DNA of 64,000 nt from Planctomycetaceae bacterium (GTDB lineage: Bacteria; Planctomycetota; Planctomycetia; Pirellulales; Pirellulaceae). This document shows, in pieces, positions 46,554-64,000 of this stretch. Where the stretch lies: the NCBI GenBank assembly GCA_027487485.1, contig JAIYDN010000108.1, positions 1-64,000 of the forward strand, given 5' to 3'. Below the pieces are notes generated by a model that saw nothing but the letters and a program-made list of their open reading frames with translations, did not search any database and was not told the DNA's origin. The position numbers and the translations under genes are program-made. The first letter of the stretch is position 1. Each line of letters starts with the position of its first letter.

Positions 46554-48494
46554 ATGCGACATCCAATCATTCCCATGAACTCAACATCGACATCTTTATT
46601 GCTCCTACTCTTGGTACTAGCAATGACGCATTCACCAGTGCTTGCCCAGGAACAGCCGGACAAATATGCGTTGCTGGTCGGAGTCAGGAATTATGAGAAA
46701 CCGGAACTGAATACCGGCTTGAAATATCCCGAAAAAGATGCCGAAGCATTGGCTACAATTTTGCACGCGGCAGGTTACGAGGTCGATTTGCTGCTTGGCA
46801 AGCAAGCAACTGCGAGGGCCATTCGGGCCAAACTGGAAGGGTTCAGCAATCACGGCGGCAACAAAGGCGTTGTGTTTGTGGCCCTGTGCGGTCATGGGAC
46901 GGAGTTTGCAGACACGAAGCGATCGTATTTTTGTCCGTACGATACGTCGATGAAAGCCCTTCGAGATAAGCAAGGTCAGGCCTTGTTCGACAACAAAGGC
47001 AACCCGATGCTGGGGCCGACTGCAGAATCGATGGTTGCGATCGATGACATTTTGCTTGCGTTTGGCGAATCCAAAGCAGCGCATCGGATTTTGGTTGCCG
47101 ACTGTTGTCGTGACGACGCGAATCGAGCTCGGGGCCGATCTTTCGGAACCAGCCTAACAACAGATCGGTTGCCGATCCAAACGTTGATGTTGCTAGGTTG
47201 TTCACCTCAGGAGCAATCGCTGGAGCATGACGCATGGAAGCACGGAGCGTTGACCAAGTGCCTATTGGATCAATTAGAAATAGTTGCGTCGACAGGCAAA
47301 GGGACGATGGGAGGCGTGGCGGAGGAGGTGTTGCCTGCAGTGGAGCTGCTAGTAAGCTCCCAGTCGAATAACACGGACAAGCAGACACCTCGAATTTTAA
47401 GCACGGGCCGAGTGGAATTGTTGTTCCAACGAAGCAAAGCGAATGAGAAAACAACACCTCCGCTGTTCAATTTTGCGGACGATGACAAGAGCAGCGTTCA
47501 AGCCCTTGCATCGCAACAGTCGTGGGCTGAGTTTCAGTCGTTGGAGGTTGACCGGTTGAATTCGGTTGGGATGCGCTTGCGATTGCTACCGCCTGGTGAG
47601 TTTCTGATGGGCAGTACGGAAACGAAAGCGGATTTGGAGTCCAAGGGGATATCAACCTACGAAGGGTTTAGCAACGACGATGAACGTCCGCAGCATCGCG
47701 TTCAGATCAGTAAGTCGTTCTATGTTGGTATTCATGAGGTTACTCTCAACCAGTTTCTGCAATACTACAACGCGGACAAGGTCAATCACAAGACGGATGC
47801 GGAAAAGGATGGGAAGGGGGGCTACGGCTATGACGGTACGAAATTTGAGCAGAATGCAAAGTTTGTCGCTTGGAACACGGGTTGGAACAATCCAGTGGAT
47901 CAATTCATGGATCATCCGGCGGTGAACGTGAGCTGGAACGATTCGGTGTCCTTTTGCGAGTGGCTGACGCAGAAAGAGCGTTCATCTGGCTTGATTCGCG
48001 CGGATCAGGAATATCGGTTGCTTGATGAAGCACAGTGGGAATACGCAGCCCGCTGTGGCAGTCGTAGCGAGTTTGGTTTTGGCAATAACCCCAATGAATT
48101 AACAAGTTTTGGCAACGTTAAGGATTCTACGTTTGTGGCACAGTTACCGAATATTGCAAGTCAATTTGAGCAATTTGGCAAGTCGTTAGTAAAGAGCGAT
48201 GGGCATGCTTTTACATCTCCGGTAGGAAAGTACAAACCGAATAGCTTTGGATTGTACGATATGCATGGTAATGTTTGGGAATGGTGCCAAGATGGCTACG
48301 ATGAAAATGCGTATTCAGCGCGGCGCAGCATCGTTAAGGACCCATTCGTAAAAGAGGGCTCGCTCCGCGTCCACCGTGGCGGCAGTTGGGAGCGCGCCGC
48401 TGTCAATTGCCGGTCGGCGGACCGGATCTGGAACTCGCCGGGCTACCGGGTTGTTAACTTGGGCTTTCGCGTCTCCCTCCAGTCAGTCCGCTGA
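46554..48494 (+). CDS. Exported caspase-like protease with FGE-sulfatase domain (C14 + SUMF1)
   Basis: The product has 646 residues with a signal peptide ending VLAQ. The caspase domain (about 25-270) has catalytic His in ALCGHGTEF near 113 and Cys in VADCCRDD near 183. A linker leads to a formylglycine-generating-enzyme-like domain (about 335-640) with GMRLRLLPPGEFLMGS, VNVSWNDSVSFCEWL, GLYDMHGNVWEWCQD and RGGSWERAAVNCRSA. Such domains often bind rather than oxidise. The caspase half is almost identical to that at 57551. ATG 46554 is chosen because MR(H/Y)PI is shared with that copy. Confidence 0.85.
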   Translation: MRHPIIPMNSTSTSLLLLLLVLAMTHSPVLAQEQPDKYALLVGVRNYEKPELNTGLKYPEKDAEALATILHAAGYEVDLLLGKQATARAIRAKLEGFSNHGGNKGVVFVALCGHGTEFADTKRSYFCPYDTSMKALRDKQGQALFDNKGNPMLGPTAESMVAIDDILLAFGESKAAHRILVADCCRDDANRARGRSFGTSLTTDRLPIQTLMLLGCSPQEQSLEHDAWKHGALTKCLLDQLEIVASTGKGTMGGVAEEVLPAVELLVSSQSNNTDKQTPRILSTGRVELLFQRSKANEKTTPPLFNFADDDKSSVQALASQQSWAEFQSLEVDRLNSVGMRLRLLPPGEFLMGSTETKADLESKGISTYEGFSNDDERPQHRVQISKSFYVGIHEVTLNQFLQYYNADKVNHKTDAEKDGKGGYGYDGTKFEQNAKFVAWNTGWNNPVDQFMDHPAVNVSWNDSVSFCEWLTQKERSSGLIRADQEYRLLDEAQWEYAARCGSRSEFGFGNNPNELTSFGNVKDSTFVAQLPNIASQFEQFGKSLVKSDGHAFTSPVGKYKPNSFGLYDMHGNVWEWCQDGYDENAYSARRSIVKDPFVKEGSLRVHRGGSWERAAVNCRSADRIWNSPGYRVVNLGFRVSLQSVR

Positions 48495-48507
48495 GCCGGG
48501 TTATCTT

Positions 48508-48563
48508 TGCGCCTGAGGCGCTAGCCGAGTTTTAGATTCGCTCGGCTAGCGCCTCAGGCTCAA
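48508..48563. repeat. Interspersed inverted repeat, copy 2
   Basis: GCCTGAGGCGCTAGCCGAG and CTCGGCTAGCGCCTCAGGC form a perfect stem just after the caspase-FGE gene. Half copies follow at about 48620-48643, 48667-48690 and 48820-48843. Confidence 0.85.
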
Positions 48564-48975
48564 GGAAGCTATTGATTTGTCGAATCCTAAAGTGGGAAGA
48601 ACGCCTAGCTCTTCCAGTAAACTCGGCTAGCGCCACAGGCTCAACAAAGCCAATGATTTAGATTCGACCGGCTAGCGTCTCAGGCTCAATGAAGCCAATG
48701 ATTAGTCTTATTCGAAAGTGGGAAGACCTCCTCGCAGTTGAATCTGAGGCCTCGGCATTTGGATCTTGCATTTTCCCAAACAGTAAATATTTGGATTTTC
48801 GATCTGGCTAGCGAATTCGAATCTCGGCTAGCGCCTCAGGCTCAAGTAAAAACGAGGATGCAAAGACTTGCGAGGAAATTTTCGAAAAACGCAGTTCGAT
48901 GGGAATAATTTCGTTTTCGCTGCGTTTACACTACGTACCATCCTAAATCGTCTCGCATTTCCGTTAGAGAGTCCC

Positions 48976-50808
48976 ATGAGTAATTCGCCCCTTCGCATTT
49001 TGAATAGTTTGTTGATGGCCATCGGTTTATTGGTGTCTTTCGAACCTAGCTCGGTCCTCGCTCAGGAGAGCGATACTGCCGCTCAAGCCGGACAGATTCT
49101 CAAACGTTATTGCTTCCGTTGCCACTCCGGCGATGGTGACGATTCTGGCTATGCCTTTGACGTTCGTCAGGTCGCAAGCCTTGCCGAACAAGACGTGATC
49201 AGACCTGGCGATGCGAAAGAGTCGACCCTTTATCGATTGCTTTCCAGCGGAAAGATGCCTCCACGCAACCAGCCGCAACTTCCGAAGCCATCCGCCGACG
49301 AAGCGGAAATCGTCCGGCAGTGGATTGACGCTGGTGCTCCGGAGATTCCTAAACCAAAACGCCGCGATTTCGTCGGTCTCCAAGAGACGCTTACGAGCAT
49401 TCAAAAGCATTTTTCGAGTCTCGCCCCCGAGGATCGAAGCAACGTTCGATACTTCACGCTGACCAATCTATGGAACGATTCGGAAATCGACGACGCTCAC
49501 TTGAGAAACACGAGAGCTGCTCTTTCAAAAGTTCTCAACAGCCTGTCGTGGTCTCCAGCGATCGTCTTGCCCCAAATCGTTGATAGCAAGGGAATCGTAC
49601 TTGCTATCGATATCAGCCGCCTTGGTTGGACTCAGGAACATTGGCAATCGCTGCTCGATGCATATCCCTACGGTTTGGATTATGGTTCGCACCCAAATAC
49701 AGAATTGAACCGTATCAATGGCGATATCAATAAATTGGACCGCAAAAACAAGCTACTCCATCTTCGTGCCGATTGGTTCATCAGCACGGCGGTCAAGCCT
49801 CTACTGTACCACAAGCTACTCTATGAGTTGGTTCTTCCCGATTTAATCAATAGACCTGTCGATCCAACGTCTCCTAGCAACCCGAAAAACATGACGGACC
49901 GCGACCTCGAAAAGTTCCTCAAGGTTAATGTCTCCGCAAATCAGTTTGCCGATCCTCCTCGTGTCCTGCGAGCAGGATTCGTAAAGAGCGGTATATCGGG
50001 ACAAAACAGAATGATCGAAATGCACCGATTGGGAAGCGGACGAATCTACTGGAAGAGTTACGATTTTCTTGCAAGTAACCGCGAAGCGATCCTTGCGGAA
50101 TTCCCTCTAGGTCCATCCAATCCAGCTAATGATTTTAACCAACTTGCCTTCAAGCATGATGGTGGAGAAATCATCTTCACTCTGCCGAACGGACTGCAAG
50201 GTTACTTGCTCGCGACCGGTGCGGGTGCGCGGTTGGATGCGGGCCCGATTGAAATTGTCGGCGACTCGCTCCGCACTTCTGGCAATCAAACGATTGTGAA
50301 TGGGCTTTCCTGTATCGCTTGTCATCGGACTGGCATGGTCGAGCCTCCACGGGACGAGATTCGCGAGTTTGCGTCGGTGTTCGGAGATGCGAAAAGACAA
50401 ATCGAAAAGCTGTATGCACCACACGACGTCATGCGAGATGAAATCGACAAGATTAATAAAGCGTTCACCCAAAAACTGGAGGAATCGATGGCTGAGTTCT
50501 TGCGTTATGATGGGGGACCCAAGCCAGACTTTGCCTACATGCCAGAACCCGTTGCCGAAGTCTCTCGACGTTTTTTGCTAGAGGACATGAACATCGAAAC
50601 GGTTGCTTGTGAATTGGATGAATCCAAGCCTGAAGATCTTTTGGTTTTATTGAAGCGAACGCAAGAGCTTCGAGGTTTAGGAATCAACGTTCTATCTCGT
50701 GAAAATGGCGCAATCAAACGCGATGCATGGGAGAGCAAGAGCGGCCCAACGCTTATGCAAGAGACTGCCAGGGTGCTGGGTTTTACCCCTGTTGTGAGTA
50801 GAAATTGA
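48976..50808 (+). CDS. Exported diheme cytochrome-like protein (PSCyt1 domain)
   Basis: The product has 610 residues with a signal peptide ending SVLAQ. A planctomycete cytochrome domain (PSCyt1) spans about residues 35-120: heme motif CFRCH near 46, then LYRLLSSGKMPPRNQP and EIVRQWIDAGAPE. A second heme motif CIACH is near 446 (NGLSCIACHRTGM). The segment between is unique. It is likely an electron-transfer or redox sensor protein of the periplasm. ATG 48976 gives the signal peptide. Confidence 0.8.
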   Translation: MSNSPLRILNSLLMAIGLLVSFEPSSVLAQESDTAAQAGQILKRYCFRCHSGDGDDSGYAFDVRQVASLAEQDVIRPGDAKESTLYRLLSSGKMPPRNQPQLPKPSADEAEIVRQWIDAGAPEIPKPKRRDFVGLQETLTSIQKHFSSLAPEDRSNVRYFTLTNLWNDSEIDDAHLRNTRAALSKVLNSLSWSPAIVLPQIVDSKGIVLAIDISRLGWTQEHWQSLLDAYPYGLDYGSHPNTELNRINGDINKLDRKNKLLHLRADWFISTAVKPLLYHKLLYELVLPDLINRPVDPTSPSNPKNMTDRDLEKFLKVNVSANQFADPPRVLRAGFVKSGISGQNRMIEMHRLGSGRIYWKSYDFLASNREAILAEFPLGPSNPANDFNQLAFKHDGGEIIFTLPNGLQGYLLATGAGARLDAGPIEIVGDSLRTSGNQTIVNGLSCIACHRTGMVEPPRDEIREFASVFGDAKRQIEKLYAPHDVMRDEIDKINKAFTQKLEESMAEFLRYDGGPKPDFAYMPEPVAEVSRRFLLEDMNIETVACELDESKPEDLLVLLKRTQELRGLGINVLSRENGAIKRDAWESKSGPTLMQETARVLGFTPVVSRN

Positions 50809-50821
50809 AGCATAAAGCTTT

Positions 50822-50903
50822 AGCCTAAGGCGCGAGCCGAGATTGGGTTGGCCTGAAACCTAGCAATCGCTGCAAGAAATCGGCTAGCGCCTCAGGCTCA
50901 AAT
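50822..50903. repeat. Interspersed inverted repeat, copy 3 (divergent)
   Basis: CCTAAGGCGCGAGCCGAG and ATCGGCTAGCGCCTCAGGCTC flank a longer loop. It lies between the cytochrome and the next secreted protein. Confidence 0.65.
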
Positions 50904-50969
50904 AAAATATTGAGATCGTTTCCGCATGGAAACACAAACAACCACATGCCCACTATGAAAGTAACTGAA

Positions 50970-52148
50970 ATGAAATGCTTAAAAGAGCTGACTTTGTTGT
51001 TCGCCGTTCTTCTACTGCTCTGCTTGGCTCGGCCAAACGGTGCTCAAGCCGATACCCCAAAATCGCCCCCAACCATGACATTTTCCGGCCAGATGACCGC
51101 ATTGAGTATGGAGCTGCTAGGTTTAGCTGAAAAGGATCCCGAACTCAAAGGCAAGAAACTAAAATTCATGAGCGTTGTCTCTGCAAACCTTACCGACAGC
51201 AATTTCAACCTCCGAGTGGAAGAAGAATTAAAGAGCAAACTGACATCGATCTTGGACGATAATTCCGAGCTCCTTTTGTCCGGAGAGCTCGATTACCTTG
51301 AGTCTACGACGCCGGATAACTGGGGATTTAGGGTCGTTCAAATTACGATGAAAGTGGTTAATGCCAAGCGAAGAGAGCTAGCCAAAATTTTCCGCGAGAT
51401 CAACGATTCGGGGGATATTGCTCGCATCATTCAGATGACTATTGCTCCACCGGATACAACCGACTTTGCAGAACGCAATAAGGAACTGGCCAAGGCGGAA
51501 AAAGCTCCTTCATTTGCGCTCGTATCTGATAACAAAAGCCAGGTCACAGCCATGAACTTCCCTCGTTACGCAATGGGATTGCGTCGGCGAGTGAATGGAC
51601 AGGGGGCCGCAATTCCGGTTCAGCCGACAGACGAGAAGGGTTATGCGTACGCCCCGATCGGAATCGGCGACACTTATGAAGTCGTACTGTACAACTACGA
51701 CGAGCAATCGGATGCAATTGCAAAAATAGAAATCGATGGGCTAGACGCAGCTAATACGTTTTGCACGGACATGACTCCTTTGGGCCAGAAGCAATCATAC
51801 ACTGGGTACTTCATCCCTCGAGCGGTTAACGGCAAGCCGGGCGAGCATGTCGTCTCGGGTTGGTTAAATACCGTCAAACCATTTCAAGAGAACGTATTCA
51901 AGTTTATCGTGAACAAGCTCGGCCAGGGGGCCGCGTCCAAGCTCAATGTTCGCACCAATAAAAGCGGCATAGTTACAGCAACGTTTTTTGATGCTTGCGA
52001 GCCCAATGGCAAGTTGCGTGCTCGGAATTTTGGCGAAACCGGCCAGGGGGAAGGCATGCGAGTTGACTACCAAGTGAAACCAGTCGAGGTCGCAAAAACG
52101 CCTATTTCGATTGTCTCGATCCGCTACAGCCGTTCGCCTGAAAACTGA
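50970..52148 (+). CDS. Hypothetical secreted protein
   Basis: The product has about 392 residues with a clear signal peptide (LTLLFAVLLLLCLARPNGAQA). The mature N-terminal half has helical stretches with a repeating ELKxKLTSILDD pattern; the C-terminal half is beta-rich (SFALVSDNKSQVTAMNFPRY, GIGDTYEVVLYNYDEQSD). I recognise no family. Earlier in-frame ATGs at 50946 and 50955 are possible. The context, between two caspase genes and a PSCyt1 gene, suggests a shared envelope role. Confidence 0.6.
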   Translation: MKCLKELTLLFAVLLLLCLARPNGAQADTPKSPPTMTFSGQMTALSMELLGLAEKDPELKGKKLKFMSVVSANLTDSNFNLRVEEELKSKLTSILDDNSELLLSGELDYLESTTPDNWGFRVVQITMKVVNAKRRELAKIFREINDSGDIARIIQMTIAPPDTTDFAERNKELAKAEKAPSFALVSDNKSQVTAMNFPRYAMGLRRRVNGQGAAIPVQPTDEKGYAYAPIGIGDTYEVVLYNYDEQSDAIAKIEIDGLDAANTFCTDMTPLGQKQSYTGYFIPRAVNGKPGEHVVSGWLNTVKPFQENVFKFIVNKLGQGAASKLNVRTNKSGIVTATFFDACEPNGKLRARNFGETGQGEGMRVDYQVKPVEVAKTPISIVSIRYSRSPEN

Positions 52149-52195
52149 TTTTGACCTACACAATTCAATTTGAATTTACCCATTCATTTCAATTA

Positions 52196-52251
52196 GCTTA
52201 AGGCGCAAACCGAGCCACACCACTGGAAATCGGCTAGCGCCTCAGGCTCAG
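52196..52251. repeat. Interspersed inverted repeat, copy 4 (divergent left arm)
   Basis: The right arm ATCGGCTAGCGCCTCAGGCTC is intact; the left arm CTTAAGGCGCAAACCGAG is degraded. It lies 70 bases before the next caspase gene. Confidence 0.65.
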
Positions 52252-52318
52252 TAAAATGCAAAGTTGATTGAACAATATAGATCGAACGATTTCGAGGCGA
52301 GCCGAAAGGGCAAAAGTA

Positions 52319-54031
52319 ATGACCTATAGATTGAAAAGTTTGGCCGCATCTTTTCGATGCGTAGGCTTATGCATGTTCATCGGCTTGATACTCACTTCAA
52401 TTGCACCTGCTTTCGCTCAAACAACCTCTTCACCCAAGCGCTATGCTCTGCTGGTCGCAGTCACGCGGTACGAAGACGACAAGCTCAATACGCCACCCTT
52501 GAAGTACCCCGAGGACGATGCAACAGAATTGGCTCTAAAGTTGAAAGAGGGAGGGTATGAGGTGGAGACGCTGCTTGGCGAACAAGCTACCCAAGAAGCG
52601 ATTCTCGCCAAACTTTCACAATTAGGTGACCGAGGTAATGCCGATGGGGCTGTTATTCTTGGTTTCTTCGGACACGGAGTCGAATTTGCTGGAACCGCGG
52701 AAGCCATGTTCTGTCCTTTCGGAACAACGATGCGCTATGCCAAAGACAAAGCAGGGAACCAGTTATTCGAAGAGAGAATTGATGGAAAACAAGTGGCCAA
52801 GTTAATGGAACCAGATCCGGAGTCGTTGGTCGGCATGAGTGAAATACTGGATGCGATGCGAATCTGCAAAGCGGGCAACAAATTACTATTGGCTGACTGT
52901 TGCCGCAAAAGTCCCAATGCGGCCCGTGGTAGAGCCTTTGGAACGGGTATTCAGCTATCGGACCTGCCGAGCAAGACGGCAGCCATCTTTGCATGTTCGG
53001 AGGGAGAGGAAGCCCAAGAAGATGACTCTTGGCGACACGGGGCAATGACGAAATGTTTCCTGGACCTGCTGCCGGAACTCACTGGCGATTCGAATGACAT
53101 CAACGCGATCACGGGTCGCCTTGCAAGAAACGTTTCGAATATCGTTCGTGTGGCAACTAATGGAGCCAAAAAACAAACGCTTCATCCCATTGTGAATGGT
53201 ATTGTTGAACTCAAATTATCGGAGTCATTAGGAGACTCTAAGCAATATCTGAGTGCCTCTACCGGAATGCATTTTGTCCTTATCCCCGCAGGGAAATTCA
53301 TGATGGGATCACCGGAAAGTGAACCGGGACACAATTTTACCGAACCCCAAAGGAGCGTCACAATCAGCCGCCCATTTTACCTTGCCAAGTATGAAGTCAC
53401 GCAGTCGGAGTTCTTATCAGTAATGGGTTTTAACCCAAGCCATTTCGACAAGTCAAAGTTTAGCAACGCAGATGGTTTGCCTGTGGAAAGTGTGTCGTGG
53501 TTTGATGCAGTGGTGTTCTGCAATAAACTGAGTCAGAAAGATGGCCGATCGGCTGCATACACGATTGCTGAAATAGCAATAGAAGAAGGCACACAGAGTA
53601 TCAAGTCTGCAACGGTCGAATTGGTACCCGGCGCCAACGGTTATCGTCTACCCAAAAGCGATGAATGGGAATATGCGTGTCGAGCGGGGACGACGACAGC
53701 GTTTAGTACGGGAGCAACACTAACAAAAGCTCAAGCCAATCTAAATGACAACTCGACGATGTTGTCCAAATCATTCCTGCCCAATGCTTTTGGTTTGCAC
53801 AACATGCACGGTAATGTTTATGAATGGTGCCAGGATTGGGAAGACTCTTATGTGAACGGCAAGTTAGTGGCACGGGATGATAACTTCAAGGAATTTTGGA
53901 GCCGAGTCACCCGTGGCGGTAGTTGGGGCATCGATGCTGCTTTTTGTCGGTCGGCGTACCATAGCGGAAGCTATCCACAAGACAGTCGTGATAACTTGGG
54001 CTTTCGCGTCGCTCTTCCATCTGCCCGCTGA
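52319..54031 (+). CDS. Exported caspase-like protease with FGE-sulfatase domain, second copy
   Basis: The product has 570 residues. Its signal peptide ends APAFAQ. The caspase domain has His in GFFGHGVEF near 119 and Cys in LADCCRKSPNAARG near 194, with the D-C-C arrangement. The FGE domain (about 315-565) shows MHFVLIPAGKFMMGS, VESVSWFDAVVFCNKL, RLPKSDEWEYACRAG and NVYEWCQDWED. It is only moderately similar to the 46554 protein, so an older duplicate. ATG 52319 is chosen over an upstream TTG. Confidence 0.85.
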   Translation: MTYRLKSLAASFRCVGLCMFIGLILTSIAPAFAQTTSSPKRYALLVAVTRYEDDKLNTPPLKYPEDDATELALKLKEGGYEVETLLGEQATQEAILAKLSQLGDRGNADGAVILGFFGHGVEFAGTAEAMFCPFGTTMRYAKDKAGNQLFEERIDGKQVAKLMEPDPESLVGMSEILDAMRICKAGNKLLLADCCRKSPNAARGRAFGTGIQLSDLPSKTAAIFACSEGEEAQEDDSWRHGAMTKCFLDLLPELTGDSNDINAITGRLARNVSNIVRVATNGAKKQTLHPIVNGIVELKLSESLGDSKQYLSASTGMHFVLIPAGKFMMGSPESEPGHNFTEPQRSVTISRPFYLAKYEVTQSEFLSVMGFNPSHFDKSKFSNADGLPVESVSWFDAVVFCNKLSQKDGRSAAYTIAEIAIEEGTQSIKSATVELVPGANGYRLPKSDEWEYACRAGTTTAFSTGATLTKAQANLNDNSTMLSKSFLPNAFGLHNMHGNVYEWCQDWEDSYVNGKLVARDDNFKEFWSRVTRGGSWGIDAAFCRSAYHSGSYPQDSRDNLGFRVALPSAR

Positions 54032-54089: not shown

Positions 54090-54200
54090 TGAGCCTGAAG
54101 CGCTAGCCGAGTTTTCGATTCGTTCTACTAGTGCATGGAGCAAAAAAAGCCGTTGATTCGTTATATTCGAAAGTGGGGAAATCGGCTAGCGCCTCAGGCT
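54090..54200. repeat. Interspersed inverted repeat, copy 5 (split)
   Basis: GAGCCTGAAGCGCTAGCCGAG (54089-54109) and ATCGGCTAGCGCCTCAGGC (54180-54198) are separated by 70 bases that include a degenerate middle arm. Confidence 0.6.
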
Positions 54201-54253
54201 TAATAAGTTGCAAACGTACCTATCAAAACAATCCAAAAGCAAAGTTGATCGCA

Positions 54254-55387
54254 ATGACACCACGTCGTAACTCCAGACTCCTACGCTTGTTTTTGTCGTC
54301 AACAGTATTCGTCTGTCTGCATCCAGTCAAAAGTCAGGCTCAAGCCACGCCTAGTGCAGCGACAAAGATCGCGGTCGCCCAGGACTCGTCATCCAGCAAC
54401 GCTATGAGCGTGTTGGCAATCGGTATCACCCAATACAAGAACGTGAGCAAATTGGAGTTCACTGCCAACGATGCACGGAGTGTAGCGAAAGCGTACCGAG
54501 AAGTCGGTGGATTGAATGAGAAAAACATCAAACTGCTCATCGACGACGAAGCCCAAAAGCCGGACGAAATCAACGTTCCAAAAATGGAAAGCGCAATCAC
54601 CGCATTTTTAAAAGCTCAAAAAAAGGAATCTACCGCCGTACTTTTTTTCGCTGGGCATGGCTTTCGCGTGAAAGGCGAATTTTATCTGGTAGGCAACGAA
54701 TTTTCTGCAGATTCACCGGAAACGACGGGGTTGCCTTTGGTCAAGTTGCGATCCATGTTGATGGATTGCCAAGCGAAAACCAAAGTTGTGATACTCGATT
54801 GCTGCCATAGCGGTTCTTTCGGATCGGCATCGACAGAACTCGCGACGACGCTTCGCTCCGTTCCGGGTTGCGTGGCCATCACAGCGAGTCGCCCTGAGCA
54901 AGAGAGCCTGGAAACTGCTGAGCTTCGTTCCGGGGTCTTCACGCATTGGCTCGTACGTGGAATGCGAGGCGACGCAAATACAAAAGTAGATGGTCGCATT
55001 GATGCGATGGAGCTATTCGATTACGTTTCGAACCGAGTCAGTAAAGGTACCGATGGAATGCAGGCGCCCGCTATTTCCTTGGATCAGTCATCCGAGATTC
55101 CGACGATTATCGAGTTGCGTCGTCCGGATCGCCCCAGCGACACGGTAGGGATCATTCCGTTTCCGCTACCGCCAACGGACGACACGATGCTGATCGTCTT
55201 GGACACTGTCGCACGGTTCCCAGATGCGAACCCACGACGTACGATTGGATTGTGCCACTGGGTACTCAAACACGCGACACCGCAGTCGGAATCGGCGAAG
55301 CAAGCCGGGGAACTCATCAAATCCATCGACGAGCGCATTTTGTCCGGGAAGATTAAGCTTGGCCCAAAGGAAGAGGGCGAACAGTAG
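54254..55387 (+). CDS. Exported caspase-like protease (single domain)
   Basis: The product has 377 residues with an N-terminal signal (LRLFLSSTVFVCLHPVKSQAQA). This is the most canonical caspase/metacaspase of the cluster: FFAGHGFR near 134 and VILDCCHSGSFG near 183, with ITASRPEQESLET near 208 and THWLVRGMRGDA near 232. Residues after about 295 are a Pro-rich linker and a helical tail. Caspase-fold peptidases of this group usually cut after Arg, Lys or Asp; the specificity here cannot be read. Confidence 0.85.
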   Translation: MTPRRNSRLLRLFLSSTVFVCLHPVKSQAQATPSAATKIAVAQDSSSSNAMSVLAIGITQYKNVSKLEFTANDARSVAKAYREVGGLNEKNIKLLIDDEAQKPDEINVPKMESAITAFLKAQKKESTAVLFFAGHGFRVKGEFYLVGNEFSADSPETTGLPLVKLRSMLMDCQAKTKVVILDCCHSGSFGSASTELATTLRSVPGCVAITASRPEQESLETAELRSGVFTHWLVRGMRGDANTKVDGRIDAMELFDYVSNRVSKGTDGMQAPAISLDQSSEIPTIIELRRPDRPSDTVGIIPFPLPPTDDTMLIVLDTVARFPDANPRRTIGLCHWVLKHATPQSESAKQAGELIKSIDERILSGKIKLGPKEEGEQ

Positions 55388-55586: not shown

Positions 55587-55603
55587 CCGACGACAAACGT
55601 TGG
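55587..55603. promoter_or_regulatory. Conserved palindrome upstream of coiled-coil gene B
   Basis: CCGACG-ACAAA-CGTTGG, followed by the same GCAATCGAATC as at 45320. Preceding GTGTAGCC matches GTGTAACC there. Confidence 0.55.
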
Positions 55604-55641
55604 CAATCGAATCCTGTCCCCACTGTTTTCTGGAGTTTGAA

Positions 55642-56433
55642 ATGAAAAAGACTATTTTCACAGCCGTTGCAATGACCGTTTCCAGCTTGTCCCAATTCAC
55701 ATACGCATGCGACAAGCCGGTTATCACCGTGTCCGTAGGACGTCCAGTGGTTCAAAGCGTTCAAGCGGTTTTTGTTGTGACCGAGACGGTTTCTGTGCAA
55801 TCGAGTTTGTCTCGGCTGGACAACCTTCAAGCCCCCGTTAGCACTTACGTCGATCACTGCCGCAACGAACTAGCAGACGCCAACAATAAAGTTGCGGTTT
55901 CGGAAAAAGCCCTGGCCGAGTCCGAAAAAGCTATCGCCGAAGGAGTCGACAAGTTGATCGTGCTCCGCGATGTGTTCGATCTGCCAGGCTGCTCGGTTTG
56001 CATCGGCGGCAAGATTTTCTCGAAGGACGATCTAGCCAAGGTGCTCACTTTGAAGATCAGCGATCACGAATCGCGTGATGCGAAGCGAAACTTGCTCAGT
56101 GTCGAACTTGTAGAAGCACGTAAGCAACAGAAATTGGTGGCCGAACGGGTTGAAAAATGGGAAGCCAAGCAAAGGGACTTGGTCGGTCGAGTCAATACGA
56201 TTCGTGATCAGTTCAAAGTACGTGAGAAAGTGTCCTTGGATGCAAAGCAAGCAGTTGCAGCCAAAGCCGCAATCGAAGAGGCCAACAAGCTTGCTGAGAG
56301 TTTGGAGAGTCAAATGAAGACGGCGACGGAAGTAATACCAGCAACAGCAGCTTCGCCAAGCGACCGAGTTTCGGAAGCAGCCGCAGATTTCGATCGACTT
56401 TTCAGTGCGAAGGAAGTTTCTGCGAAACGATAG
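55642..56433 (+). CDS. Secreted coiled-coil protein, paralogue B
   Basis: The product has 263 residues. The signal peptide is MKKTIFTAVAMTVSSLSQFTYA. It follows paralogue A along its length: beta-rich SVGRPVVQSVQAVFVVTETV, then the Cys motif CSVCIGGKIFSKDDLAKVL near 117, the invariant LTLKI(N/S)(D/N)HESRDA stretch, and a C-terminal coiled coil ending AAADFDRLFSAKE. TGGAG precedes ATG 55642. Two copies at different places in the same cluster suggest a paired function. Confidence 0.7.
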   Translation: MKKTIFTAVAMTVSSLSQFTYACDKPVITVSVGRPVVQSVQAVFVVTETVSVQSSLSRLDNLQAPVSTYVDHCRNELADANNKVAVSEKALAESEKAIAEGVDKLIVLRDVFDLPGCSVCIGGKIFSKDDLAKVLTLKISDHESRDAKRNLLSVELVEARKQQKLVAERVEKWEAKQRDLVGRVNTIRDQFKVREKVSLDAKQAVAAKAAIEEANKLAESLESQMKTATEVIPATAASPSDRVSEAAADFDRLFSAKEVSAKR

Positions 56434-56529: not shown

Positions 56530-56584
56530 TGAGCCTGAGGCGCTAGCCGATCGAATCTAAAACTCGGCTAGCGCCTCAGGCTCG
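56530..56584. repeat. Interspersed inverted repeat, copy 6
   Basis: GAGCCTGAGGCGCTAGCCGA and CTCGGCTAGCGCCTCAGGCTC form a near-perfect stem with a short loop, 55 bases before the next gene. Confidence 0.85.
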
Positions 56585-56638
56585 CGTCGAAAGCTGTAAA
56601 ATAGTTCTTTGACGTTTATATTCCCATCGAAACCTACC

Positions 56639-57493
56639 ATGCTAACACGAATACTTTTATTCATCGTTCTTTGGCACTGCCCCTTTACGCATTTGCACGC
56701 TCAGAAGCCGGAGAAATCAAGCAAGTACGCTCTGCTGATCGGTATTGATGCACCGCAATCGCTTCAAGTAATTCCGTCTAAGTACTCAGAAGCCAGCGTT
56801 GATCTGCTTTCGAAAGTACTATCGAATAGTGGCTATGAAGTTGAAACGTTGATTGGCAAACAAGCAACGTTTGCAGCGATGCGTGAGAAGCTTGATGGAG
56901 TAAGCAAGAAAGGTACCAGCAAAGGTGCTGTCGTGGTTGGGTATTTTGGATTTGGAATGGAACTAAAGGAAAAGGGTTACCTGCTATCGGTGGATACTCC
57001 TGCCGCTGTGCTCACCGATTCAGATGGTCGGAAAATCTACGGGGCAAAGGGACCCGAGTTGATTCCGAACATTGATCAAGCGATTTCAGTAGACTCGGTG
57101 CTCGCCACTCTTGCGATTTCCAAGGCCTCGAATCGAATCCTCATTTGCGATGCAGCTCTTGAGAAACCCAATCGAGCACGCGGCTATGATGGCCGCAGCG
57201 ATTTTTGCAATATACCGAATGGTACGGCTGTCTTGTTTGGCTGTTCAGCGGGAGAGCAAACGCTTGAAAGCGATGATTTGCATGACGGGATCTTTGCACA
57301 TATGCTGATCCGAGTCCTGCGTGAGCAAGCGGAGCTCGGAGAAACGACCATGGGCATCATTGGCGATCGCGTGTGCAAATTGGTCTCCGACTGGACGAAC
57401 AAGAACTCTCGGGGCTCTCAACACCCACGACTTGTGCTCAACGGCTTTGTCGATATACAATTGTCGGCTGCTGTAAAGCTGAATAAAAAATAG
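56639..57493 (+). CDS. Exported pseudo-caspase lacking both catalytic residues
   Basis: The product has 284 residues with a signal peptide ending HLHAQ. The fold follows the active caspases of the cluster (YALLIGIDAPQ, YEVETLIGKQATFAAMREKL, TAVLFGCSAGEQTLESDD). However, the His motif reads GYFGFGMEL, with Phe for His, and the Cys motif reads LICDAALEKPNRARGYD, with Ala for both Cys residues. All else is intact and without stops, which points to retention as a non-enzymatic regulator or binder rather than decay. Confidence 0.8.
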   Translation: MLTRILLFIVLWHCPFTHLHAQKPEKSSKYALLIGIDAPQSLQVIPSKYSEASVDLLSKVLSNSGYEVETLIGKQATFAAMREKLDGVSKKGTSKGAVVVGYFGFGMELKEKGYLLSVDTPAAVLTDSDGRKIYGAKGPELIPNIDQAISVDSVLATLAISKASNRILICDAALEKPNRARGYDGRSDFCNIPNGTAVLFGCSAGEQTLESDDLHDGIFAHMLIRVLREQAELGETTMGIIGDRVCKLVSDWTNKNSRGSQHPRLVLNGFVDIQLSAAVKLNKK

Positions 57494-57550
57494 GTGAATG
57501 ACAATGACTCGTTCGATCGTATTCACCGATGCACTGAATTAACTTTTCCT

Positions 57551-59272
57551 ATGCGATATCCTATCATGCTTATGAACTCGCCATCGGTATCCATTTTGTT
57601 CTTGTTTTCGATGCTCGCGTCAGTGCATACATCATTGCGCGCTCAGGATCAGCCAGAGAAATACGGATTGCTAGTGGGGGTGACGAATTACGAGAAACCG
57701 GAATTGAATACGGGATTGAAATACCCGGAGAAGGATGCCGAGGCATTAGCTGCGATTCTTCGAACGGCGGACTACAAGGTCGATCTATTGCTTGGTGAAG
57801 AAGCAACCGCAATTGCTATTCGTGCTAAGCTGGGCGATTTCAGTAAGCGGGGTGGCAACAAAGGCGTTGTGTTTGTAGCCCTTTGCGGTCACGGGACAGA
57901 GTTTGCGGACACCAAGCGATCGTATTTTTGTCCGTACGATACGTCGATGAAGGCCCTCCGAGATAAACAAGGTCAGGCCTTGTTCGATAAGAACGGTAAC
58001 CCGATGCTGGGGCCGACTGCGGAATCGATGGTAGCCATCGATGATATATTGCTGGCGTTTGGAGAATCTAAAGCAGCGCATCGGATCTTGGTGGCCGACT
58101 GTTGTCGTGACGACGCAAATCGAGCACGAGGCCGTTCGTTTGGAACCAGTCTAACAACAGATCGCTTGCCGATCCAAACGTTGATGTTGCTTGGTTGTTC
58201 ACCACAGGAGCAATCACTGGAACATGACGTTTGGCAACACGGTGCGTTGACCAAGTGTTTGTTGGATCAATTGGAATTGGTCGCGAAGACAGGCAAAGGG
58301 ACGATGGGTGGCGTGGCCGAGGAGGTATTGCCTGCGGTAGAGTTGCTCGTGCGTTCCCAGACCAAAAACTTTAGTAGGCAAACGCCGCGGATATTGAGCA
58401 CTGGCCGAGTGGAGTTGTTGTTTCCAAAGGCAAAACTCAAATTCCCCCCGCAAAAACCAACAAGACTACTCTCCACAGACCGGGTTAAAAATTGGTTAAA
58501 TCGTCGAGTGACTTGCCAGATAGAATCGATCATAGAGGGAAATCGGAGGTTTCGATGCGTCGATCTCTTTTTTGAAGAGTTTCAGAACGACGTTGCAAAG
58601 GGAACACTATTTCGCTTCGATCAGCCCGTTGGAAATGTAAGGATCGAGTATGCAAATGGTCGCTCAACCTTGATGATTTCCTACGGCAATTTCGGCTTCA
58701 ACTGCGATATCTCCGAAGAGGACTTATTAGCAAAGCCCGAGCGGGAGGATTATTCCTGGGGGCAATCGCTCCGTGGAGCATCCGTATTTAAAGTTAAGAA
58801 GGACAACTCCACGCTAATCTTGCTCGAAGTTCCGGAAAAGTCAGCAATGCTGCGAAGCATCATGGAGCCAAGTAAATACAATCGATGGGGTTTTAGTGTC
58901 GAGGCAAACGACGATGATCGGGACTATCCGATGATCGATTCGGCGAGGAAGCCAATAACACCCTTGCAAGTTGGAAACGGTGCTCAATTTTCAGTTGTGG
59001 ATCAATGTCTGGATGGACCTGCAGTCATTACCGGTCGTCTATGCAAAGAGGACCAAGGCCGCGCATCGTCGCTTATCGAAAAATACGAAATGACTGTCAT
59101 CGTTGACGGCAATGAGCAAAAGCCTTTTGATAAATTGGTTATTCCATCAGGTCAAGACAAGAACTTCGATATCAAAACCACGATTCCAAAGGGCTCTCGC
59201 ACGGTGGAGATACGATTGGCGGCGGTTCACGGATTCGTAAGCTATTGGTCCGGTATGCGCATCGATTGGTAG
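57551..59272 (+). CDS. Exported caspase-like protease with a different C-terminal region
   Basis: The product has 573 residues. The signal peptide and caspase half (His in ALCGHGTEF near 113, Cys in VADCCRDD near 183) are almost identical, also at DNA level, to the 46554 protein up to GRVELLF near residue 295. From there the FGE domain is replaced by an unrelated region with a beta-rich end (GAQFSVVDQCLDGPAVITGR, SRTVEIRLAAVHGFVSYW). It could be a carbohydrate- or protein-binding module, but I recognise no family. ATG 57551 matches MR(H/Y)PI of the partner. Confidence 0.8.
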   Translation: MRYPIMLMNSPSVSILFLFSMLASVHTSLRAQDQPEKYGLLVGVTNYEKPELNTGLKYPEKDAEALAAILRTADYKVDLLLGEEATAIAIRAKLGDFSKRGGNKGVVFVALCGHGTEFADTKRSYFCPYDTSMKALRDKQGQALFDKNGNPMLGPTAESMVAIDDILLAFGESKAAHRILVADCCRDDANRARGRSFGTSLTTDRLPIQTLMLLGCSPQEQSLEHDVWQHGALTKCLLDQLELVAKTGKGTMGGVAEEVLPAVELLVRSQTKNFSRQTPRILSTGRVELLFPKAKLKFPPQKPTRLLSTDRVKNWLNRRVTCQIESIIEGNRRFRCVDLFFEEFQNDVAKGTLFRFDQPVGNVRIEYANGRSTLMISYGNFGFNCDISEEDLLAKPEREDYSWGQSLRGASVFKVKKDNSTLILLEVPEKSAMLRSIMEPSKYNRWGFSVEANDDDRDYPMIDSARKPITPLQVGNGAQFSVVDQCLDGPAVITGRLCKEDQGRASSLIEKYEMTVIVDGNEQKPFDKLVIPSGQDKNFDIKTTIPKGSRTVEIRLAAVHGFVSYWSGMRIDW

Positions 59273-59314: not shown

Positions 59315-59941
59315 ATGCCGTCCATGCGCTTGTTGCTTTTCATCTTTTGCCTAGCCAGTAATGCTATCACTTGGGTTTCGGCATTTGCTGAAGAGCCGAG
59401 TGCCAAGAATTATGGTTTGCTGATTGGAGTATCGCGATACGAACATGCTGAGATGATTCGCCCGCAACCGCCCGAGTTCCCGGAGGAGGATGAAAAAGCA
59501 CTAGCCGCATTACTGGCCGAATCGGGATGCTAAACGCTCGTTTTGGTAGGTAAAGATGCGACTCGGTCACGCATCGTTAAAGAGCTTACTCAACTAAAAC
59601 GCAAGGCGAATGACGCCGGTAACATCTTAGTGGGCTTATTTTGTCATGGGGTAGAATACCAAGGGAAGTTCAATGGTCAGGGGACAGCCGAATCCTACTT
59701 TTGCCCACACGATGTTGAACTTCGAGTTGCCAAGGATTCGCAGGGATACTGGAACGGAGGTACGCAGGGAGCCCAGCGGAGCGGCGAGTGGAATTACCAT
59801 AGTGGACGAATCTCATCCTGGGGGTGCAGACGCCGCGACCCGCCTAAAAAACTTTGGGCACCGAATATTTTCACTTTCTTGGGAGCTTTTCGGATCCAGC
59901 TCCGTTGTATCAGATGTAGTCACTCGTCAACGTTCATTTGA
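59315..59941 (+). pseudogene. Broken caspase-like gene
   Basis: ATG 59315 opens a signal peptide (LLFIFCLASNAITWVSAFA) and caspase start (NYGLLIGVSRYEHAEM). TAA at 59531-59533 interrupts it at the GYxVxxLxG position. The same frame then continues with TLVLVGKDATRSRIVKELTQ and the His motif LFCHGVEYQG and SYFCPHDV. Homology stops near 59760, before the Cys, and a shifted, unrelated frame runs on to about 59980. The catalytic Cys is missing, so no active enzyme is made. Confidence 0.75.
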
Positions 59942-59958
59942 AGGAGAGTATTTCCGTC

Positions 59959-62900
59959 ATGCAATTAGTCTGTCCAGTTAATGAAAATCGAACTGTTTGT
60001 GCCTCGTATCAAAACGCATTGCTGTATTGTTGTTTTGCTTTCTTCGCATTGACTTCATTGTCCGCATGCTTCGCTCAGGCAGAAAGAGACCAAGCGTTGG
60101 CTCAGTTTCACGAAGCAGGGAAACTCAAGGATGCGGGTGACTTTAAGGGTGCTCAGGTGAAATACGAGCAATTGCTCAAGATCCTTCCGGGGATCTACGG
60201 CGATGCAAGCGCACCCGTCGTATCAGCATCGAACGAATTGGCCACGCTTAATGTGAAGTTTGGAAAGTTTGCAGAAGCGGACGACTTATATCAACGAAGT
60301 TTGACGATCCAAACGGAAATCCTGGGCAATGAGCACCCGCAAGTCGCAAAAACACTTAATGCACTTGCGGACTCAAAGGTCCAGCAAGGAAAAAAACTCG
60401 ACGCAGAGAGGCTTTATCGAACGAGTGTTGCGATTTGCAGAAAGAATGCTGCCCCTGATGATCCCATATTTTCAGTAGCACTGAACGGTCTTGCTGGAGT
60501 CTGTGTTGACAATGGCAGCTACGCCGAAGCAGAAGATCTTTATATGCAGAGCTTGGATATTTGCATCAAGAAGTATGGGATCGAAAGCGTAGAAACAGCC
60601 ACTATAGCCTGCAACATTGGGCTAATGTTCTTTGGTGAAGGAAAGTACCTAGATTCCGAGACTTGGTATTCCAGGTCTCTCAACATTCGATTGAAACTGC
60701 TTGGAGAAAATCATCCAAGCGTATCAGAAACAGCCATGGGTATCGGAGCACTCTACTATCGACTAGGCCGTTACGACCGTGCTGAGTTTTATCTGATAAA
60801 GAGCTTGAAGATTCAAGAGTCTACATTTCCAATGGGCTCTTTGGGCACCATGAATGTGGTGAACCTTTTAGCGCAATTGCTCAGCTCGACCGATCGTGAG
60901 GAGGAAGCTCGGGCTTTGTACAAAAAAGCCTTGACCATAGGGGAATCGCTTGAATTGGGGGAGCATCCATTTATAGCAGCGACATTGACCAACGCAGCAT
61001 TGCAAAAAACCAAGCTAGGTCAGATTGGTGAAGCAGAGACCGACTTTTTGAGGGCTCATGAGATCTTCAAGAATATTGGAAACAGTCGAGAATCAGTTAC
61101 ACTGAGTCTGCACAACTTGGCAATGGCCTACCATCGAGCAAGCAAATTTGCAGAAGCCGAAATTGCACAACGCGAAAGCCTTGAGGCCTGGAGAGCAACC
61201 TTTGGGGATGTGCACCCTTATTGCATCGTTGGAGCAAGCAATTTGGGACGTATATACCAAAGCATGAAACGGTGGCCGGACGCTCTAAACGCATACGATC
61301 GGTCTCGACATGGCGCATACCGTCATATGATGGAAGTGGTGTCAGGTTTACCGGAACAAGATCAGCTCAATTTCCTCATGGTTCAAGATCGAGTTCATTT
61401 GCATCGCGCATTGAGCTTCGCCCTGACTCGTCCAGACGATGACGAATTTCATCGCAAGACCTCGGAATGGATTGTCAATTCAAAAGGGATGACCGAATGG
61501 AGCCGCGCCAAATCGATGGGAATGGCGAGAGAGAGTCAAGCACCGGAAACGGCGGAAGCGCTGGCGACCCTCAAGGACACGCAGCAGCAGATCGCTCGTC
61601 TCACTTTGCTCAACGCAGAGTCGAAGACAGGTAGTCCTGGCGCTCGTGAAATCGATTCGCAAATTGCCAACTTAAACAGCCGAAAGAACCAACTCGTTGT
61701 CGACTTGCAACAGCTTGGTTCAGCCGCGGTCGCACAGCGTCCGTGGATCGAACGGGAACAGATTCAAGCTGCTTTACCAATGGATTCGACGCTGGTCGAT
61801 TTTGTTCGCCTCGATTTCTATTCACCCGACAAGGAACCGATTCAGTCCGAGCGTTACGTCGCTTGGGTTACGTCGAAAGACAAAACACGTTTGGTCGATC
61901 TGGGAGAAGCGAAAGAAATCGATAGCTCGATCGCAACCCTTCGAAAATCCTTTGATCTAGCGGCCGAGGATATCGCAGAGTACGGAGAGAAAGCATCCGA
62001 GCAACGCATCCGCGGCGAACTGGAGCGTCTGTCACAAAAGCTGCTCGCTCCAATCCTAGCTGAATTTAAGAATTCGAAGCGTTTAGTTTTGTGCCCTGAC
62101 GGAGATCTTTGGCTTGTCCCTTGGAATGCATTGGTTCTTCCCGATCAGAAGTACTTGGTCGAGGAGCATGTACTGGAGTTTGTGGTCAACTCGGGAGAAT
62201 TACTCGAATCACAAGCGGATGCTAAAAGCGCAGCGAAGTCGACGGCCCCGGTTATCATTGCAGACCCCGACTTCAGCGGAGCCTTCAAATCCGACTCGGC
62301 ACCAGCCAGGGGACTTTCTGCCGATCTGAAACTTGGCAACATTAGTCAACTTCCCGGAACCGCAGCGGAAGCGTCCATCGTTAAATCGGCATTCAAAGGG
62401 CGCTACAAACAAGAACCGTCGACGTATCTGAGAGGGGAAGCGACCGCTACGAGGCTTCTTTCCGTGCAGCGTCCTCGAGCGTTGGCGATCGCTACGCATG
62501 GTTTTTTTCTTCCCCAACAATCGACAACGCCCCTTGCAAACACAGCAACCATAACGCAATCGCCAACAATGGCTTCCGTTGAGGATCCGCTTCTTCGATG
62601 CGGTCTCTTGTTCGCTGGCAGTAATCTTCCTGATCAAAAGGGTTTAGCTGGTGTCGTAACAGGACGAGACATATTGGGATTGGATTTGCGCGGTTGCGAA
62701 ATGGTGGTTCTTAGCGCGTGCGAGACAGGACTTGGGGACGTTAACAGCGGTAATGGCATCGCAGGATTACGCCAGGCCTTCCACCTAGCGGGCGCTCAAG
62801 CCGTCGTAGCCAGTCTATGGAACATTCCCGATGAAGAAACGACCGTGCAGATGAAAACGTTCATGAACTGTTTGTCCGCAGGTCAGGATCTCGCTTTGGC

Positions 62901-63000
62901 TTTAGCTGAATCGCAGCGAGAAATGCTCCGGACTCGAAGAGCCAAAACCAATGCAGCGCATCCCTACAATTGGGCAGCGTTCAATGTTACAACGAAATAA
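59959..63000 (+). CDS. Exported TPR-CHAT protease
   Basis: The product has 1013 residues with a signal peptide (LLYCCFAFFALTSLSACFAQ). About ten tetratricopeptide repeats of the TPR_12 kind (AEADDLYQRSLTIQTEILG, then AETWYSRSLNIRLKLLG-like units) span residues 40-470. A helical spacer follows. The C-terminal CHAT domain has WLVPWNALV near 715, His in IATHGFF near 845 and Cys in VVLSACETGLGD near 919, plus GLRQAFHLAGAQAVVASLWN. CHAT is a caspase-fold peptidase. GGAG 12 bases before ATG 59959 supports the start. Confidence 0.9.
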   Translation: MQLVCPVNENRTVCASYQNALLYCCFAFFALTSLSACFAQAERDQALAQFHEAGKLKDAGDFKGAQVKYEQLLKILPGIYGDASAPVVSASNELATLNVKFGKFAEADDLYQRSLTIQTEILGNEHPQVAKTLNALADSKVQQGKKLDAERLYRTSVAICRKNAAPDDPIFSVALNGLAGVCVDNGSYAEAEDLYMQSLDICIKKYGIESVETATIACNIGLMFFGEGKYLDSETWYSRSLNIRLKLLGENHPSVSETAMGIGALYYRLGRYDRAEFYLIKSLKIQESTFPMGSLGTMNVVNLLAQLLSSTDREEEARALYKKALTIGESLELGEHPFIAATLTNAALQKTKLGQIGEAETDFLRAHEIFKNIGNSRESVTLSLHNLAMAYHRASKFAEAEIAQRESLEAWRATFGDVHPYCIVGASNLGRIYQSMKRWPDALNAYDRSRHGAYRHMMEVVSGLPEQDQLNFLMVQDRVHLHRALSFALTRPDDDEFHRKTSEWIVNSKGMTEWSRAKSMGMARESQAPETAEALATLKDTQQQIARLTLLNAESKTGSPGAREIDSQIANLNSRKNQLVVDLQQLGSAAVAQRPWIEREQIQAALPMDSTLVDFVRLDFYSPDKEPIQSERYVAWVTSKDKTRLVDLGEAKEIDSSIATLRKSFDLAAEDIAEYGEKASEQRIRGELERLSQKLLAPILAEFKNSKRLVLCPDGDLWLVPWNALVLPDQKYLVEEHVLEFVVNSGELLESQADAKSAAKSTAPVIIADPDFSGAFKSDSAPARGLSADLKLGNISQLPGTAAEASIVKSAFKGRYKQEPSTYLRGEATATRLLSVQRPRALAIATHGFFLPQQSTTPLANTATITQSPTMASVEDPLLRCGLLFAGSNLPDQKGLAGVVTGRDILGLDLRGCEMVVLSACETGLGDVNSGNGIAGLRQAFHLAGAQAVVASLWNIPDEETTVQMKTFMNCLSAGQDLALALAESQREMLRTRRAKTNAAHPYNWAAFNVTTK

Positions 63001-63051
63001 CTTGAGCAGTGATCAACAACAAAATTCGCATTTGAAATCAAGGACACCATA

Positions 63052-64000
63052 GTGTTGAAAATCAACAGTGTTTGCAGAAGGTTGTTTTTGGCTGTCCTTT
63101 CGTTATCCGTTTTCATTTTTGGGCAGAGGTGTTTACTTGCTCAAGCAGAAATCTATCTTGAATTAAGCAACACCCGAAACATCACTTATGGAAGTTCCCG
63201 TTACGAGTTGCACCAGTTTCTTGAAGAAAAAAACGATTACATGCAGAAGACAAACTCTGTGAAAATCGAATACAGATTAGCGAACTCGGAACTCCACGAT
63301 TTCAATCCTTTTCCAGCCAATTTTCTGAAAAAGCTTTCTTCACTAGAGAAGTTGAGAAATCTTGCAATATCTCTTGATTCTCGCGACAAATTCACCTCGA
63401 AACTTCGTTTAAATGGCATCGAACAACTCTCACGGCTTGAGTCCCTATCGATAGCCAATTTCAAACAACTTCCTAAGGATTTCTTGCCCCTAGATTCCTT
63501 GCCTGACCTCACAGAAATCAAATTCCTCGGTTGTGGGTTTGAGGAGGGCTGCATTGACAGTGTCGTGAGCCGGTCCAAACTCGAATCCATCGAATTGGTG
63601 GAGTGCGACATCACAAGCCCATCCATTCGCAAGTTTGCGAATTGTCCGAAACTTACGACCTTCGTATTGGAAGCGATTCAAATCGACCCGTTGCTTGATA
63701 GTGTCAACGAAATCAAATCGATTCGTAATCTGGTACTGAAAAGCTTTAATCTGGACGACTCATCATTGCAGTCCATTTCGGGCCTAAGCAATCTTAGGAC
63801 GTTGAACATTTCCAAGAATTTTGGCATATCTGGAGTGGGCTTCAAGCATCTAGCGAAACTGGAAAATCTTCGAACTTTAAAAGTAGATGCATCGTTTCTA
63901 ACTGACGTAGGAATGGGAGAGCTCGTCCGTCTCGATAAGCTTGTTGAACTGGATCTGATTAGCGGAGAGTTACCCGATATTGAACAACAGGAGCTTTCCG
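63052..64000 (+). CDS. Exported leucine-rich repeat protein (runs off the window)
   Basis: GTG 63052, with AAGGA 8 bases upstream, opens a frame with no stop to the window end (316 codons). A signal peptide (RRLFLAVLSLSVFIFGQRCLLA) is followed by irregular leucine-rich repeats: LSSLEKLRNLAISLDS, GLSNLRTLNISKNFGISG and LAKLENLRTLKVDASFLTD. The repeats bind protein partners. It lies 51 bases after the CHAT gene and may be its partner by position, although this is an inference. Confidence 0.8.
   Translation, partial: MLKINSVCRRLFLAVLSLSVFIFGQRCLLAQAEIYLELSNTRNITYGSSRYELHQFLEEKNDYMQKTNSVKIEYRLANSELHDFNPFPANFLKKLSSLEKLRNLAISLDSRDKFTSKLRLNGIEQLSRLESLSIANFKQLPKDFLPLDSLPDLTEIKFLGCGFEEGCIDSVVSRSKLESIELVECDITSPSIRKFANCPKLTTFVLEAIQIDPLLDSVNEIKSIRNLVLKSFNLDDSSLQSISGLSNLRTLNISKNFGISGVGFKHLAKLENLRTLKVDASFLTDVGMGELVRLDKLVELDLISGELPDIEQQELS

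Follow-up and report, generated by a model that had tools for sequence, protein, structure and literature searches.

The final 18 kb of a 64,000-nucleotide stretch of Planctomycetaceae bacterium DNA (contig JAIYDN010000108.1 of assembly GCA_027487485.1; hereafter the window) hold an array of caspase-like genes, and the question raised by this locus is whether such neighbours form one proteolytic system of the cell envelope, as a preliminary description of the sequence had proposed, and which of them belong to it. With moderate confidence, we considered the cluster as an accessory array around a conserved envelope module, made of a diheme cytochrome protein (CYT), a second protein (D) and a protease of clan CD, which would act as sensor, coupler and output, respectively. 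This reading draws on gene association, gene order, co-divergence, fusions, conserved catalytic dyads and heme motifs, all of which were observed.

The array part of the window comprises four caspases with an intact dyad, one dead caspase, one broken caspase, a TPR-CHAT protease and the diheme protein, which carries a PSCyt1 domain. In the following, C51, C37 and C91 are contigs of the same genome, L-numbers (e.g. L104, L147) are labels of CYT loci in relatives, and FGE stands for formylglycine-generating enzyme. The genes are:

45361..46161, + strand: predicted exported coiled-coil-like protein of 266 amino acids, a 61% paralogue of 55600, with no Pfam family over cut-off.
46482..48494, + strand: caspase (intact GHG/DCC) with an FGE-sulfatase-like domain and a predicted signal peptide; likely start 46554.
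48868..50808, + strand: CYT, diheme, with an N-terminal class I cytochrome c domain (PSCyt1, CFRCH) and a conserved core with CIACH; likely start near 48964.
50910..52148, + strand: D, predicted exported, with an LpoB-like N-domain and a weakly Ig-like C-domain; no Pfam, NCBIfam or PADLOC family.
52268..54031, + strand: caspase (intact) with an FGE-sulfatase-like domain, directly 3' of D.
54131..55387, + strand: stand-alone caspase, intact GHG/DCCHSG.
55600..56433, + strand: second predicted exported coiled-coil-like protein.
56609..57493, + strand: catalytically dead caspase (His to Phe and Cys to Ala), having one 77% homologue with the same changes.
57494..59272, + strand: caspase (intact), whose protease half is that of 46482 (84%) and whose C-terminal half is unrelated to it.
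59315..59758, + strand: broken caspase remnant, 78% identical to the first 144 amino acids of the caspase-FGE protein at C51:114038.
59938..63000, + strand: TPR-CHAT protease (Pfam CHAT and TPR) with a predicted signal peptide.
63052..64000, + strand: start of an LRR-TPR-CHAT protein of 1359 amino acids, which ends at C51:67131.

Every called gene between 45361 and 64000 is on the + strand. Taking the mechanical starts of the open reading frames (ORFs), the intergenic gaps measure 1-213 bases from 48868 to 57494 and 10-52 bases from 59938 to 67141; one gap of 666 bases is occupied by the caspase remnant. Terminator-like sites were no commoner than in shuffled sequences (14 on both strands vs a mean of 23.2). 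The array extends past the window to about 131 kb of C51, with further caspases at 77167, 80125, 82011, 114038, 127019 and 129553; additional CYT genes are at 72495 and 143936 and additional D genes at 145841 and 147846. In the 7.49-Mb genome we found 12 caspase genes, 11 in the C51 array and one, split by a stop, on C37; precisely, the genome search with PF00656 gave 10 matches, nine of them at C51:46.6-131.4 kb, and 56609 and 82011 were added by hmmscan. The caspase density of the array is far above chance.

For the conservation of the neighbours we used two sets of relatives, both collected with CYT as the anchor. The contig set consisted of the 80 loci most similar to the window CYT out of 500 relatives on GTDB contigs; they come from 60 assemblies and span Pirellulaceae, Gemmataceae and Isosphaeraceae, plus Poribacteria. 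In this set D was directly downstream of CYT in 54/80 loci and elsewhere in five others, while none of the five listed Poribacteria loci had it. A caspase was present within 10 kb in 42 of the 54 loci with CYT followed by D, in 24 immediately after D, and in 22 of the 27 such loci having at least 6 kb on the right. By contrast, only one of the 21 loci without any D (L104) had a caspase (Fisher p 4.7e-9). These rates are far above the caspase background of about 0.35% per 22-kb window, a value that is an underestimate, as its search lists 8 caspases for our genome against the 10 of the genome search and the 12 counted in total.

The family set was represented by the 72 CYT hits with E <1e-30 outside our genome, taken from 80 fetched regions; 71 of the 241 family genomes had a CYT match at E 1e-10, PSCyt1-only matches included, and seven of the PSCyt1-only hits served as controls. 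L096, a partial CYT hit with fragments of D and of a caspase, was counted in neither group. D was within 10 kb in 43/72 loci, and a caspase or a CHAT protease was found in 32 of these 43 (caspase 26, CHAT 7), in 4/29 loci without D and in 0/7 controls. The two sets share contigs (L104 is the same locus as L024) and hence are not independent; moreover, the profiles for D, caspase and CHAT had been refined by iteration on the family set together with our array before they were applied to the contig set. In the gene maps of many genera, CYT, D and a caspase follow one another in this order on one strand. The module of CYT, D and caspase is well supported.

The same comparison delimits the module. 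Genomes of the same genus keep differing subsets of the array, since L104 has coiled coil, CYT, caspase and coiled coil without D, whereas L105 has CYT, D and a caspase/FGE gene. The preliminary description is supported for the envelope location and the proteolytic association, and the conservation of neighbours in relatives, whose absence would have spoken against it, is present for the core. The whole 18-kb set, however, does not form a single conserved system: what is kept across genera is CYT, D and a protease, and D, a part of this conserved core, was missing from its gene list.

As described, CYT is diheme, with two CxxCH motifs, and its PSCyt1 match (PF07635) reaches 28.7 bits (cut-off 22); its N-domain is related by sequence to FoxE (5e-13). 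Structure prediction gave usable models for the CYT core (predicted local distance difference test, pLDDT, of 90) and for D (pLDDT 82), and in the latter the N-domain matches an LpoB-like fold. No sequence match was found between D and the N-domain group of LpoB, PelC and TolB, and neither the CYT core beyond PSCyt1 nor D has a family of its own in the Pfam, NCBIfam and PADLOC libraries searched. A 382-amino-acid protein at C51:78618 is matched over its full length by the iterated D profile, having joined that profile during iteration; it has no BLAST similarity to D. Outside planctomycetes, a distant CYT relative annotated as c-type cytochrome is present in Neorhizobium petrolearium (NZ_CP123001.1:507576-508970; 32% identity over 73% of the query).

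Natural fusions join the same parts. CYT and D are a single ORF in L063, and in L119 a caspase is joined to a D-type C-terminal domain. Single ORFs also combine a kinase domain, a hydrophobic segment (a probable membrane segment) and the CYT core, at L147:8687-11701 (Aquisphaera insulae) and L164:2899-5622; in L147 this fusion is followed by D and preceded by a caspase-FGE gene. Such an arrangement is that of a receptor whose CYT part lies outside, and it is the main reason for which CYT is called a putative sensor. As for the output side, the 37 caspases downstream of CYT carry WD40 in 15 cases and FGE in 14, and the order CYT, D, WD40-caspase occurs in Rhodopirellula rubra and Lacipirellula limnantheis (the caspase of the latter was called by a local profile and is not among the best 25 Pfam matches listed). 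The CYT core of Poribacteria is joined to LRR, cohesin and dockerin (L177) or to FGE (L179, and by local profile L180 and L183).

We evaluated export by means of our own heuristic for signal peptides, with our own threshold, and not by SignalP. A signal-peptide-like N-terminus was recognised in each of the 12 genes called between 45361 and 67141, in agreement with the preliminary description, vs 4 of the 19 called upstream genes of the window (Fisher p 1.6e-5), a comparison affected by some upstream ORFs that the gene caller omits. In the loci of relatives, the heuristic was positive for 73/80 CYT, 70/73 D and 64/70 caspases. Heme of c type (CxxCH) is covalently attached outside the cytoplasm, so the two motifs of CYT argue for its export. 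The envelope location of the array proteins is supported, though not proven, by these sequence features. Export had also been described as setting the array apart from the cytosolic caspase-like defence proteins of known systems; exported bacterial caspases have a precedent, as the seen part of a 2012 survey (PMC3501461) reports N-terminal helices, possibly signal peptides, on bacterial caspases.

The caspases themselves were largely as previously described. Peptidase_C14 (PF00656) matches five window genes (46482, 52268, 54131, 56609 and 57494) with 46.6-71.1 bits, the cut-off being 21.4. Four of them (46482, 52268, 54131 and 57494) have GHG and DCC, where three to four intact members had been described, and the fifth, 56609, has GFG and DAA at the dyad positions and hence lacks both catalytic residues. 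At E 1e-20 it has one non-self homologue, 77% identical and with the same Phe and Ala, which is probably on the same contig (length 70,790) as an 84% identical D. That both substitutions stand in an uninterrupted frame in two genomes suggests a retained pseudoprotease. In the relatives of the contig scan, the catalytic His is present in 72/72 aligned caspase rows and the Cys in 68/72, with three gaps and one Ile (68/69 ungapped); in the family set, our array included, the Cys is absent in 3/48 rows, those of 56609 (both residues), L081 (Met) and L031 (Ile). Dyad loss is uncommon in the module setting, though not unique, so the proposed decoy or regulatory members, one of which does seem to be retained in another genome, would not be a general component; where present, they may modulate active caspases.

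The broken member looks like decay: the remnant at 59315-59758 is interrupted by a stop and does not reach the catalytic Cys. The swapped members were confirmed as well, 46482 and 57494 being 84% identical over 295 amino acids and divergent afterwards. Overall, three pairs have 76-84% identical caspase halves and differing C-terminal halves; two of them are adjacent caspases outside the window (C51:80125-83699 and C51:127019-131508, protease halves 76-81% identical). In one swapped pair the DNA similarity ends at the domain edge, which would fit domain shuffling or gene conversion. The CHAT proteases score 217 bits (59938) and 221 bits (63052) with PF12770 (cut-off 24); the first and the diheme protein had been named correctly, whereas the supposed LRR protein does contain LRR but is an LRR-TPR-CHAT protein and not a plain one. 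The aerobic formylglycine-generating enzyme (PF03781) has a Cys pair; the FGE-like domains of 46482 and 52268 have a single Cys in this region, according to a pattern that missed the other copies. Outside the window, FGE-sulfatase-like genes are amplified at C51:70416-90610, two of them with tandem FGE domains.

Taken together, we infer that CYT would sense, D would couple and proteolysis would be the output. CYT would be a periplasmic diheme domain responding to redox state, a small ligand or a substrate; D, with its LpoB-like and probable Ig-like domains, would link CYT to the protease, a caspase or sometimes a CHAT protease (clan CD); WD40, FGE or other binding or repeat domains of the caspase would choose the target and the caspase, once licensed, would cleave envelope proteins. 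Sequence cannot tell whether the result would be a stress response, turnover or death. A more specific version is a periplasmic cytochrome-gated caspase pathway of planctomycetes, going from diheme cytochrome to LpoB-like adaptor to caspase, with dead caspases as local modulators and, in Rhodopirellula and Lacipirellula, a WD40-caspase as the output; we regarded this as unlikely.

Several observations weigh against the sensor, coupler and output reading. The contig set holds the most similar of the 500 relatives and is not a random sample of them, and the co-divergence (r 0.80-0.90 over 32 loci) is not corrected for species phylogeny. At E 1e-4, PF00656 matches 32 of the 37 caspases downstream of CYT and five fall short. 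Seven loci of the contig set with CYT and D and at least 5 kb on the right (L106, L116, L123, L128, L129, L136 and L167) show neither caspase nor CHAT, as do 11 of the 43 D loci of the family set, some on short contigs. Among the examples scanned, CYT proteins lacking D as a neighbour carry fused WD40, TPR, LRR or FGE domains with no caspase seen nearby, hence CYT has other jobs too. The export heuristic also fires on 103/196 other long ORFs of the relatives' loci, so that it is weak there and the case for export rests on our array and on the heme motifs; past 67141 it is silent on 69198, 70416, 80125, 85611, 89084 and 127019, and 80125 and 127019 are array caspases. Finally, the CYT core has many invariant polar residues, which would fit an enzyme too.

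This last point leads to a somewhat unlikely alternative, in which the CYT core is a periplasmic oxidoreductase of surface or nutrient metabolism that D helps to assemble, the caspase being a protease for maturation or quality control and neither signalling nor killing taking place. The well-folded core and the relation to FoxE would agree with it, as would the occurrence of PSCyt1 in enzyme-like proteins of planctomycetes; a PSCyt1-PSCyt2-PSD1 protein adjoins the CYT-D pair of L167. However, no sulfatase or glycoside hydrolase was found in the 10 window proteins scanned or in the next 17 genes downstream, and the receptor-like kinase-CYT fusions and the WD40 caspases also argue against it.

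The remaining alternatives depend on the surroundings of the array, where two features are present on its left side:

37073-37146, + strand: tRNA-Arg, overlapped by the next ORF.
37105-38640, - strand: tyrosine-recombinase-like ORF, named by eye.

The tRNA-Arg with its overlapping integrase-like ORF is a possible left edge of an accessory island. As a possible attachment site, 27 bases of the 3' half of the tRNA recur with one mismatch at C91:8648-8674, where no tRNA was called. For an empty-site comparison, five relatives' stretches (3-20 kb) carry metG at 71-74% DNA identity, with no tRNA called, and C91 matched none of the five. Serine recombinase and phage-integrase genes are at 153-157 kb of C51, and, within the genus, a caspase match occurs in 13/27 genomes. 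An AAA ATPase gene (42342-43853, minus strand) has weak PADLOC IetA matches over its ATPase part only. The only reverse transcriptase match of the genome is at C51:178311-179639 (178746); a diversity-generating retroelement acting on the FGE lectin fold was considered and rejected, as no adenine-biased repeat pair was found between 175-185 kb and the rest of C51.

Another possible role is conflict or regulated death in the envelope, directed at phage, predators or kin and resembling the bacterial caspase conflict systems. It would account for this accessory and patchy distribution, for the recombinase genes on both sides, for the repeat-rich partner domains and for the domain-swapped paralogue pairs; in addition, the PADLOC caspase model weakly matches 4/5 window caspases. 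We considered it unlikely: CYT and D have no PADLOC match, no NTPase gene is within the module (though the AAA ATPase is nearby on the other strand), the proteins are probably exported, in contrast to what is known of such systems, and in 72,556 plasmid records D is absent and CYT has a single distant match (32% identity). It is very improbable that the cluster is just a collection of unrelated exported genes gathered on a mobile island, with meaningless neighbours. The island markers, the remnant and the amplified FGE genes at 70-90 kb are what it would predict, but it is largely refuted for the core by the natural fusions and by the order CYT, D, caspase, which recurs across many genera and depends strongly on D; for peripheral genes, e.g. 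the coiled-coil or FGE copies, it may be valid.

Known bacterial caspase systems mostly operate in the cytosol under the control of NTPase switches. The 2012 survey, in the part seen (PMC3501461), already joins PF00656 homologues (metacaspases and orthocaspases) to FGE-sulfatase, WD40, TPR and Sel1 partners, so that protease family and partner domains are shared with the array, and it counts only 64% intact dyads in planctomycetes; the word cytochrome is absent from its main text, and the seen part does not describe a CYT-D module. Caspases with FGE, WD40, TPR or Sel1 are thus known, and the new element would be two unnamed core components in a caspase-centred system. The two-gene EACC1-caspase and the ternary MoxR-vWA systems, as far as seen in PMC7159879, resemble the module in having a constant core, a caspase, variable domains, FGS (=FGE) domains and inactive caspases. 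They differ from it in their switches, a membrane-spanning EACC1 or an NTPase, where the module, probably exported as a whole, has a diheme protein and D and lacks an NTPase. The model for EACC1-associated caspases (NF047832, cut-off 140 bits) gave at best 110.5 bits, for 54131, and less for the other four; no MoxR or vWA gene was found by domain scans in the ten window proteins or in the next 17 genes up to 98.8 kb, scans that did not include the AAA ATPase at 42342 (searched with NCBIfam and PADLOC). Farther on, outside the window, an AAA_5 ATPase adjoins a DUF2201 metallopeptidase/VWA-like protein, a MoxR-vWA-like pair (C51:99423-101809). D differs from the group of LpoB, PelC and TolB in its added C-domain and in its gene neighbours. 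In open-licence papers, we found none combining PSCyt1 with caspase or Rhodopirellula with caspase and cytochrome and, judging by titles and the start of abstracts, the module was not the topic of any of the best matches listed.

The most distant comparison is with the animal apoptosome, in which cytochrome c, the WD40 of APAF-1 and a caspase act together (PMC7159879, seen in part). The likeness consists in class I cytochrome c, WD40 propeller and caspase occurring in one set, whereas in the module WD40 is fused to the caspase, there is no STAND ATPase, the location would be extracytoplasmic and the cytochrome is diheme; we considered it an analogy only, with no claim of descent. With a heme protein as its likely input, this conserved and probably exported set would represent a new way of controlling caspases; should the chain of sensor, adaptor and protease be confirmed, a separate class would be warranted. 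Cultured strains offer a concrete test of whether cytochrome-caspase coupling arose outside animals; if the cytochrome-gated version were true, planctomycetes would have a bacterial, extracytoplasmic parallel to cytochrome c-WD40-caspase apoptosis, made from different parts.

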